A DNA stretch of 60,223 nt from Dokdonella fugitiva (GTDB lineage Bacteria > Pseudomonadota > Gammaproteobacteria > Xanthomonadales > Rhodanobacteraceae): NCBI RefSeq assembly GCF_014138265.1, contig NZ_JACGXL010000002.1, positions 911,737 through 971,959 of the forward strand, in the 5' to 3' direction. Positions 11,001 to 12,446 of this stretch are shown here, piece by piece. The notes beneath the pieces are model-generated. The model had not been told where the DNA came from, did no database searches, and was given only the letters and a program-made list of their open reading frames with translations. The position numbers and the translations under genes were made by a program. How positions within the stretch are numbered: the first letter of the stretch is position 1; the number at the start of each line of letters is the position of its first letter.

Positions 11001-12446
11001 TTGAAGCTGCACATCCTCGGCATCTGCGGCACCTTCATGGGCGGCATCGCCGCGCTCGCGCGCGAACTCGGCCACGACGTCGAAGGCTCGGATGCGAACG
11101 TGTATCCGCCGATGTCGACCCAGCTCGAACGGCTCGGCATCGTGCTCAAGCGGGGTTACGCCGCGGAGAACCTCGTGCCGCCGCCGGAGCTCGTCGTCGT
11201 CGGCAATGCGATGACGCGTGGCAACGCCGCGGTCGAGCACATGCTCGACGAGCGCCTGCGCTACGTGTCGGGCCCGCAATGGCTCGGCGAGACCGTGCTT
11301 GCGACACGCCGCGTGCTCGCGGTCGCCGGTACGCACGGCAAGACGACGACGACCTCGCTGCTCGCGTGGATCCTCGAATCGGCCGGCCGCGATCCGGGTT
11401 TCCTCGTCGGCGGCGTGCCGGCGAACTTCGGTGTGTCGGCGCGACTGGGCGGCGTTTCCCTCACCCCACCATCAGCATCCGCCGATGGTCCCCCCCTCTC
11501 CCGCTTCGCGGGCGAGGGACGGATGTCGCCGCCTGCGGCGGCGGATTTCGTGATCGAGGCGGACGAGTACGACACCGCGTTCTTCGACAAGCGCTCGAAG
11601 TTCGTGCACTACCGGCCGACGATCGCGATCCTCAACAACCTCGAATACGACCACGCCGACATCTTTCCCGACGTCGCGGCGATCCAGCGCCAGTTCCACC
11701 ACCTCGTGCGCACGGTGCCGCGCAACGGGCGGTTGATCGTCAATGCCGAGGACGCACGCCTCGCGGAAGTGCTCGCGCAAGGCTGCTGGACGCCGGTCGA
11801 GACGTTCGGCGTCGACGCCGGCGACTGGCGCGCGCGGCTCACCGCGCCGGACGGCTCGTCGTTCGTCGTCTCGCACGCAGGCAGCGAGCTCGGCTTGGCC
11901 GAGTGGACACTGGGCGGTCGCCACAACGTGATGAATGCACTCGCCGCGATCGCGGCCGCGCACGCGGCCGGCGTCGCGCCGGCCGACGCGATCGCCGCGC
12001 TCGCGACGTTCCGCAACGTCGCGCGGCGCATGGAACTCGTCGCCGAGCACGCGGGCATCCGCGTCTACGACGACTTCGCCCACCATCCGACCGCGATCGC
12101 GACCACGCTCGCCGGCCTGCGCGCGAAGGTCGGCACGGCGCGCATCCTCGTCGGCATGGAGCCGCGCTCGAACTCGATGCGCATGGGCGCGCACGCGGAC
12201 GAACTCGCGCCGTCGCTCGCCGATGCCGACGCGGTCGTATTCCTCAAGCGACCGGAACTGCCGTGGGACGCCGCGCGCATCGTCGACGCGCTCGGCGGCC
12301 GCGGCCGCACTGCAGCGAGCGTCGACGCGCTCGTCGACGCGCTGCTCGCGCAGGTGCACACGGGCGACCACGTCGTGTTCATGTCGAACGGCGGCTTCGA
12401 GAACGCGCCGCGCCGGTTCGCCGCGGCACTCGCAGCGAAGGGGTGA
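11001..12446 (+). CDS. mpl: UDP-N-acetylmuramate:L-Ala-gamma-D-Glu-meso-DAP ligase, with an in-frame insertion
   Basis: A 481-residue cytosolic Mur-ligase-family enzyme that reattaches recycled tripeptide to UDP-MurNAc. Motifs: N-terminal MKLHILGICGTFMGG, P-loop GTHGKTTTTS (110-119), FVIEADEYD, DFAHHPTAI and EPRSNSMRMG. It starts with TTG at 11001 with CGGAG about 10 bases upstream, since the family start MKLHILGICG falls there. It is longer than the usual about 457 residues because residues 152-181 are an extra stretch encoded by a palindromic repeat element (separate entry). That stretch lies in a surface linker between RLGG and DFVIEADEYD, so activity may be retained. Confidence 0.95.
   Translation: MKLHILGICGTFMGGIAALARELGHDVEGSDANVYPPMSTQLERLGIVLKRGYAAENLVPPPELVVVGNAMTRGNAAVEHMLDERLRYVSGPQWLGETVLATRRVLAVAGTHGKTTTTSLLAWILESAGRDPGFLVGGVPANFGVSARLGGVSLTPPSASADGPPLSRFAGEGRMSPPAAADFVIEADEYDTAFFDKRSKFVHYRPTIAILNNLEYDHADIFPDVAAIQRQFHHLVRTVPRNGRLIVNAEDARLAEVLAQGCWTPVETFGVDAGDWRARLTAPDGSSFVVSHAGSELGLAEWTLGGRHNVMNALAAIAAAHAAGVAPADAIAALATFRNVARRMELVAEHAGIRVYDDFAHHPTAIATTLAGLRAKVGTARILVGMEPRSNSMRMGAHADELAPSLADADAVVFLKRPELPWDAARIVDALGGRGRTAASVDALVDALLAQVHTGDHVVFMSNGGFENAPRRFAAALAAKG
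11454..11543 (+). repeat. Palindromic repeat element inserted in frame within mpl
   Basis: Ninety bases interrupt the otherwise contiguous Mpl sequence (RLGG then DFVIEADEYD in the E. coli-like arrangement). The core at 11494-11518 is a stem CCCTCTCCCGC / GCGGGCGAGGG with a TTC loop and one mismatch, flanked by CTCACCCCACC. This matches the style of repeats that litter intergenic DNA in Lysobacterales. The length is a multiple of three and adds 30 residues without a stop. Confidence 0.8.

Follow-up and report, generated by a model that had tools for sequence, protein, structure and literature searches.

Palindromic repeats in frame at one turn of the Mpl ligase of Dokdonella fugitiva and its relatives

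The mpl gene of the window and its insert

The window, i.e., the whole 60,223-nucleotide stretch of Dokdonella fugitiva DNA that was analysed, carries an mpl gene at 11001..12446 on the plus strand. The frame is open throughout, 481 codons from a TTG at 11001 to a stop ending at 12446. The encoded protein of 481 aa possesses the Pfam domains Mur_ligase, Mur_ligase_M and Mur_ligase_C together with the Mpl-specific AFFDKRSK motif, which identifies it as an Mpl ligase. Its best solved relatives by sequence, 3hn7 and 3eag, are both Mpl, and in the window's genome the gene is the sole match at E<=1e-40. The catalytic and ligand positions given in the accessible text of PMC3060825, when mapped by offset, coincide with invariant columns: the P-loop GKT 113-115, Glu186, Asn213, His218, His308, Asn312, Arg343, Asp358 and His361. 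Glu186 is presumed to bind Mg, a role taken from Glu178 of Psychrobacter Mpl in that text. It lies in the EADEYD motif (11556..11573, plus strand), immediately 3' of the insert described below. In seven chosen pairs, including four with differing turns (G168/G118, G117/G105, G016/G065, G002/G012), dN/dS outside the turn is 0.06-0.17, and the mpl DNA outside the insert is 81-92% identical in the pairs compared. As judged from these sequence comparisons, the gene outside the insert is under purifying selection and its catalytic positions are intact.

The insert comprises residues 152-181 (11454..11543, plus strand) in the turn between the strand ARLG and the strand FVIEADEYD. It is delimited by a gap in relatives, by turn lengths and by pLDDT. 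Insert-free relatives match the window's Mpl as residues 1-151 and about 180-481, which confirms the coordinates. An earlier note on this DNA had read the 90 bases as an in-frame palindromic insert, and the open 481-codon frame, the stem and the alignment gap in relatives all agree with it. Its premise that RLGG and DFVIEADEYD are normally contiguous failed. Insert-free sisters have 2-4 residues between them (e.g., ARLGSSDDFVIEADEYD, L061), with turns such as LGSSDD, LGAGAD and LGGADGGD. Therefore, the insert is real but the net gain against these sisters is 26-28 residues, not the 30 which had been claimed.

The stem CCCTCTCCCGC / GCGGGCGAGGG, previously taken for the element's hairpin, is present with 10 of 11 positions paired, yet the element consists of three hairpins and not of one. 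These are features without strand. The outer arms of the composite element, TCCCTCACCC / GGGCGAGGGA (11457..11519), form an inverted repeat which is 90% complementary. Hairpin 1, ACCATCAGC-ATCC-GCCGATGGT (11468..11489), emerged from the inverted-repeat search. In the aligned cores of five genomes it reads ACCGTCGGC/GCCGACGGT in three of the four family A sisters, i.e., one pair is altered on both sides. Hairpin 2, CCCTCTCCCGC-TTC-GCGGGCGAGGG (11494..11518), has its arms at 11494-11504 and 11508-11518 and constitutes the dispersed core. Hairpin 3, CGCCGCC-TGC-GGCGGCG, is located at 11527..11543. A similar closing hairpin with a stem of 6-8 terminates the Mpl inserts of G013, G007 and G003 and is also found in a copy within a nonribosomal peptide synthetase (NRPS; L296); in G015 it has only 4 pairs. 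The window's turn folds only moderately stronger than 100 mononucleotide shuffles of the same very high G+C (z -2.4). Neither GTAG nor CTAC, the signature of GTAG REPs, occurs in 11454-11543.

An AlphaFold model was computed from the window's protein and 24 related sequences (mean pLDDT 86, pTM 0.86). Residues 153-178, i.e., the insert, are the sole stretch of at least three residues with pLDDT<50, and the strand 3' of the insert is preserved. The top solved structures matching the model are Mpl (3hn7, E 3.3e-52; 3eag, TM 0.92 by target length), followed by MurC. Thus, the insert is predicted to be disordered and the Mpl fold is predicted to be otherwise kept. The insert, a palindromic repeat in frame inside a conserved gene which it leaves intact, is, as a kind, a coding palindrome like the Rickettsia palindromic elements (RPE).

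The repeat outside mpl

In the genome of 4.77 Mb the core pattern CCCTCTCCCGC..GCGGGNGAGGG has 24 matches, one of which is in mpl; the reversed control pattern gave none. The whole 90 bases have a single match, mpl itself. What is dispersed in this genome is the 25-nt core and not the insert as a whole. The earlier note would have been contradicted by a lack of other genomic copies; the core is present at 23 further places. The 90 bases as the dispersed unit are ruled out: the core alone recurs in the window's genome, and the sisters carry a composite of 59-66 nt. The CCCTCTCCCGC palindromes of the window's genome (contigs 1, 8, 6 and 3) look clustered, with 8 of 24 in C1:955-1099 kb and 7 of 24 in C8:121-135 kb.

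A 66-nt query, a hand-written blend of the copies of this repeat (family A), was searched in 16 genomes of the genus. The composite is present in Mpl of five of them: the window's genome (G000), G015, G013, G007 and G003. Outside Mpl, matches of 59-61 bases were obtained at four loci (G004 contig 11, G015 contig 10, G015 contig 1 and G010 contig 10), and many shorter matches proved to be cores. In the window's genome the composite occurs once, and there the core alone is dispersed. Six long core-spanning frames of that genome have no Pfam match, so that no further in-frame copy is apparent among those six.

Three of the four composite loci outside Mpl lie in frame within conserved proteins, and the alignments of these to solved RelA, oligopeptidase A and NRPS chains are interrupted at the composite. 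The RelA of G015 (L298:349-2700, plus strand, contig 10) carries a family-A-derived insert between AHWRYKE and FERKIAWMR. Its loop is 37 residues longer than that of the window's genome, and the repeat is absent in nine other genus genomes read. In the oligopeptidase A (peptidase M3) of G004 (L295:810-3005, minus strand, contig 11) an in-frame insert of 33 residues is located shortly before HEFGH; here the protein is read from the opposite strand of the palindrome, and the sister G005 has no insert. An NRPS-like adenylation domain of G010 (L296:1-2403, plus strand, contig 10) is interrupted in frame by the element in the same reading frame as the Mpl insert, yielding LTPPSASADGPPLSRFAGEG. The fourth locus is upstream of a frame which we take to be rodA-like. 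The in-frame insertion in the manner of RPE, which the earlier note had proposed, is thus matched by the same composite type in three other conserved proteins of sisters.

The same turn among relatives

The turn was compared in 147 genomes, i.e., all 16 of the genus, which was taken whole, 129 others of the family, which were sampled evenly, and two of the order. G006 was excluded because of an assembly gap in its insert, leaving 146 Mpl sequences, 144 of them from the family. Outside the sample are four family genomes with an Mpl match, three family genomes without a match and most members of the order. Between SAR and FVIEADEYD the turn normally has 5-8 residues. It is shorter than 10 in 104 of the 146 sequences, has at least 10 residues in 42 and at least 20 in 37. 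Among the 15 readable genomes of the genus 11 have 20 residues or more. The long turns span 22-72 residues and share no common sequence. When insertions are counted along the whole protein against G011, 37 of 146 Mpl have 10 or more extra residues at the turn, and no other internal site has an insertion of more than 5 residues in any of the 146 sequences. Apart from the internal sites there is an apparent insertion of 20 at the very start, due to the cut gene of G143, and one of 10 at the C-terminus. Further long turns are found in L076, L077, L080 and L089, from a set of 80 loci which partly repeats the sampled genomes and is outside the counts. The turns are poor in stops: 4.3 of 6 frames are open compared to 2.8 in shuffles; selection accounts for one of the open frames.

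Classes of inserts were assigned by hand-made rules. Class A, the window's element, comprises five Mpl, class B (runs of GGGATT..AATCCC) four, class C (GGGGACGGAGGCAATTAA inverted repeats) two, class D (GGGGTCAGAGT..ACTCTGACCCC) four and class F (CCCTCATCCG..CACCTTCTCCC mosaics) 13. Class R consists of the two sister sequences of G004 and G005, which lack clear symmetry and have no fold above chance (z +0.7 and +1.1). Twelve turns are unassigned and 104 sequences have no insert. Some unassigned turns are partly B- or F-like, some look like plain Ala/Pro/Gly expansions (g13, G002). Together with class R they indicate that the turn can lengthen without a palindrome too. The earlier note had named a shared loop in repeat-free relatives as evidence against its reading. 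Repeat-free relatives mostly have a short turn; a link to a repeat is lacking, however, for 12 of the 42 longer turns and for both turns of class R.

Families A and F are partly alike and C and D share their beginnings; therefore, the turn holds at least five families but at least three unrelated kinds. One event involving one element, as initially envisaged, does not describe this site. Near-perfect inverted repeats extend over most of the length of the C and D inserts, of several B and of some F inserts (z to -12.1). Four of five A and eight of 13 F inserts end in a closing hairpin of the type GCNGCCTTCGGCNGC whose stem has at least 5 pairs. The NRPS copy has such a hairpin too, which marks these inserts as mosaics of the BIME kind.

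Copies of four insert families (A, B, D and F) are scattered through host genomes. For family D there are 38 full copies in G150 (one of which is the Mpl insert), 6 in G091 and 2 in G117; in G033 the Mpl copy is the only one, and the two genomes chosen for family C have none. Family B gave 30 BLAST hits in G008, 61 in G009, 34 in G010 and 29 in G068, and 8 and 9 in the two family C genomes; not all of these are full copies. Family F was searched in 11 of its 13 genomes and in four others. Matches were obtained in 14 of the 15, e.g., 18 in G127, 19 in G080, 65 in G143, 75 in G048 and 2 in G024; the four others have 1 (G065), 7 (G000), 0 (G011) and 1 (G032).

Other proteins were examined for comparison. 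MurC, a paralogue with the same turn, is insert-free in all 20 genomes fetched, 10 of them from the genus. The RelA loop contains the repeat in one of 10 genus orthologues read (L349 and L359 are one genome, G003 [L357] is unreadable and five genomes have no match), the oligopeptidase A loop in one of 14. Thus, insertions occur elsewhere, yet Mpl is exceptional among these four proteins. E. coli can do without Mpl, RelA and oligopeptidase A but not without MurC, and this difference may be relevant here. In G002 (contig 117, L374) the oligopeptidase A loop exceeds that of sisters by 15 residues at the position where G004 has its palindrome, without an assigned repeat.

Two trees of Mpl with differing depth were used to follow the turn. 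A quick tree was calculated from 144 sequences with the turn removed, leaving out G001 and G143 whose genes are cut by contig ends. On it the insert class changes at least 31 times and the presence of an insert at least 19 times. These minima are inflated because many forks are weak; 59 of 141 are open, and the tree cannot separate gain from loss. A careful tree of 33 rows, in which G001, G143 and G106 were left out, has a bootstrap which is not fully settled. It pairs sisters with differing turns, i.e., G168 (C) with G118 (F) at 100/95, G014 (C) with G009 (B) at 96/86, and G002 (14-residue turn) with G012 (8-residue turn) at 100/99. G000 and G015, both A, are joined at 100/98. Identity among the five A cores is 0.85-0.92, and 0.81-0.89 in the rest of the gene. 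A subset of 15 rows (G152 and 14 of the genus) requires at least 8 changes; when the labels were shuffled 200 times, the mean was 9.3 and the minimum 7. Thus, insert class tracks descent only weakly. G152 itself is assigned to another genus (g5, L173), and its Mpl groups with the window's genus and not with other g5 in both trees (90/77 in the careful one), suggesting a gene transfer or a question of taxonomy.

Y1 transposase genes (PF01797) were found in 11 of 15 genomes tried, and nine loci were read. In five of these (G015, G091, G150, G008, G009) inverted D repeats stand on both sides of the Y1 gene, and a C repeat is near the gene in G014 and G009. At L361-L366, in five genomes of the family, Y1/RAYT-type genes are flanked by GGGGTCAGAG inverted repeats in a TIRtron arrangement. 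G150 and G091 carry family D both in mpl and around a Y1 gene, the association expected of a RAYT/TIRYT system. G033, which has D in mpl, has no PF01797 match, and neither has the C-bearing G168 nor the B-bearing G010. The exact family A word CCCTCTCCC is absent from the fetched flanks of the nine loci, including those of G000 (L368), G004 (L367) and G015 (L361). L368, whose fetched flank is free of words of families A, B, C and D, is the only PF01797 gene of the window's genome. Within the nine loci read no Y1 partner was found for A, B or F. G032 has 18 PF01797 matches on one chromosome, 16 of them near-equal in score, against 0-3 in the other 14 genomes; this looks like an IS200-like expansion.

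Origin of the inserts and known systems

We consider it probable that mobile palindromes land widely and that a flexible Mpl turn of a tolerant enzyme retains them. The window's insert would be a mobile palindromic element (REP/BIME/MITE-like) which landed in mpl and whose translation presumably gives the enzyme a disordered loop, with about 28 residues gained. Elements of several families would move in these genomes, D and probably C by means of the adjoining Y1/RAYT-type transposases. Insertions would occur at many places and most copies which hit genes would be removed. Survival would be expected for inserts with a length divisible by three and an open frame, in an exposed turn between two strands, and in an enzyme which can bear them. 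The turn ARLG/FVIEADEYD would fit all three unusually well, so that inserts may have come, gone and been replaced there many times. The simplest account is that of an exposed turn which varies naturally and tolerates foreign residues, and tolerance seems a better description than selection for a loop. The mobile-element reading is supported by insert-free RelA and oligopeptidase A in sisters of insert-bearing genomes. Several findings count against parts of the proposal. A quarter of the sampled species are long at the Mpl turn versus one genome each for the RelA and oligopeptidase A loops, which tolerance alone would have to explain. Some hosts have few other repeat copies (only the Mpl copy of D in G033, 2 of F in G024), no family A mobiliser was found near the PF01797 loci read, and the composite occurs once in the window's genome.

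Alternatively, the mpl DNA at this turn could itself attract transposases, e.g., by the G run before the junction, the TTC after it or a single-strand fold, which would make the turn an insertion hot spot and not a place of survival. Three of six C and D inserts (G150, G014, G168) end in TTTT adjoining a TTC/TTT codon and the other three do so within 5-8 bases; the B inserts of G009, G010 and G068 have near-identical junctions on both sides, and MurC with the same protein turn stays empty. We nevertheless hold such a target preference to be unlikely. Neither the sequences nor the presumed movers are shared between the families, no mover being known for A, B and F, the left junctions of the five A inserts differ in length, and the A composite is found elsewhere in unrelated sequence contexts. 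Selection for the loop is another way to account for recurrence across Mpl and for the 11 of 15 readable genus genomes. Lengthening of the turn, close to where the first domain borders on the second, might alter domain opening or substrate binding, with palindromes as a ready source of residues, or hairpins in the mRNA might tune mpl expression. The A peptide LTPPSASADG.PLSR.AGEGR is conserved across five genomes, and the accessible text of PMC3060825 suggests that a loop at this place restricts how far the first domain opens and might account for a higher Km. Against this, the long turns vary in length and have no sequence in common, and they are missing from near sisters (on the quick tree, G016 beside G065 and G129 beside G061). 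Further, between the sisters G000 and G015 the A core diverges about as fast as the rest of the gene (0.864 versus 0.886). Hairpin strength ranges from z +1.1 to -12.1; because of this wide variation an RNA-hairpin function as the driver is not favoured. Taken together, a useful loop has in our opinion little chance of being the explanation.

The turn could also have grown in place by slippage or local repeat recombination, or short alleles could have been replaced between species, with no mobile element involved. The 12 unassigned expansions among 146 Mpl and class R with its fold not above chance would fit. We regard this as highly improbable, since inserts of families A, B, D and F have dispersed counterparts in the genome of the host or of a sister, and since the C and D inserts, several B inserts and some F inserts consist of near-perfect inverted repeats with ends close to those of the insert. 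A bolder version of the retention of mobile palindromes is conceivable but doubtful: the turn may be a natural cassette site at which different mobile palindromes are inserted, lost and replaced repeatedly across the family, by site attraction or favoured loop swapping; repeat DNA would then rewrite one and the same protein segment over and over.

In-frame palindromes are already known outside Rickettsia (PMC3733652, PMC2229807, as far as their accessible text goes). RPE are hairpins of 105-146 bp between genes and in frame in conserved proteins; the first report listed 19 reading frames, Gmk is active with its insert, and enterobacterial and Yersinia MITEs also provide in-frame palindromes (PMC2229807, accessible part). 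The window's insert resembles RPE in kind. In contrast to RPE, which are described from many genes, several repeat families are present here at one orthologous site in GC-rich gammaproteobacteria. GTAG/CGTC REPs and REP dimers inside ORFs of Opitutus, Rickettsia conorii, Thauera and Thioalkalivibrio encode 20-30, up to 82, residues and, in the portion of PMC3733652 available, are distributed over many different genes, many of them for DNA repair, whereas one Mpl turn is concerned here. The main text of that paper, as available, contains no match to Xanthomonas, and the letters "mur" match once, apparently in the name of a cited author. It gives GGGGWSAS as the TIR motif of TIRtrons. Like TIRtrons/TIRYT and REPIN/RAYT, family D is an inverted repeat which with GGGGTCAG fits this motif, is dispersed, in G150 in units of about 70-80 bp, and flanks a Y1 gene. 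Unlike them, a member of family D is inside mpl, A, B and F are not linked to a transposase, and C fits the motif inexactly.

The turn itself has been noticed before. According to the accessible text of PMC3060825, Psychrobacter Mpl (3hn7) has an optional loop 161-171 near the boundary of the first two domains, which is present in Neisseria (3eag) and absent from E. coli, and which is suggested to limit domain opening. By counting it is the same turn, seven residues before Glu178. Unlike the inserts reported here it has about 10 residues and is not described in that text as derived from a repeat. Literature on Mpl insertions, on intragenic palindromes at one site, on the repeat motifs themselves and on palindromic repeats of Xanthomonadales/Lysobacter gave, among the matches listed and subscription papers and supplements aside, no orthologous protein site colonised repeatedly by unrelated repeat families. 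The Mpl turn provides many natural replicates for the question whether selfish palindromes build protein segments, as the same loop is empty or filled by at least five families. In addition, it points to a place in a Mur-type ligase where insertions are tolerated, and serves as a warning that annotation and structure pipelines may take repeat DNA for protein loops. In G006 (L062 / L163) the Mpl insert holds a run of N amid AAGGGGG-like repeats, and a palindrome may have broken the assembly.
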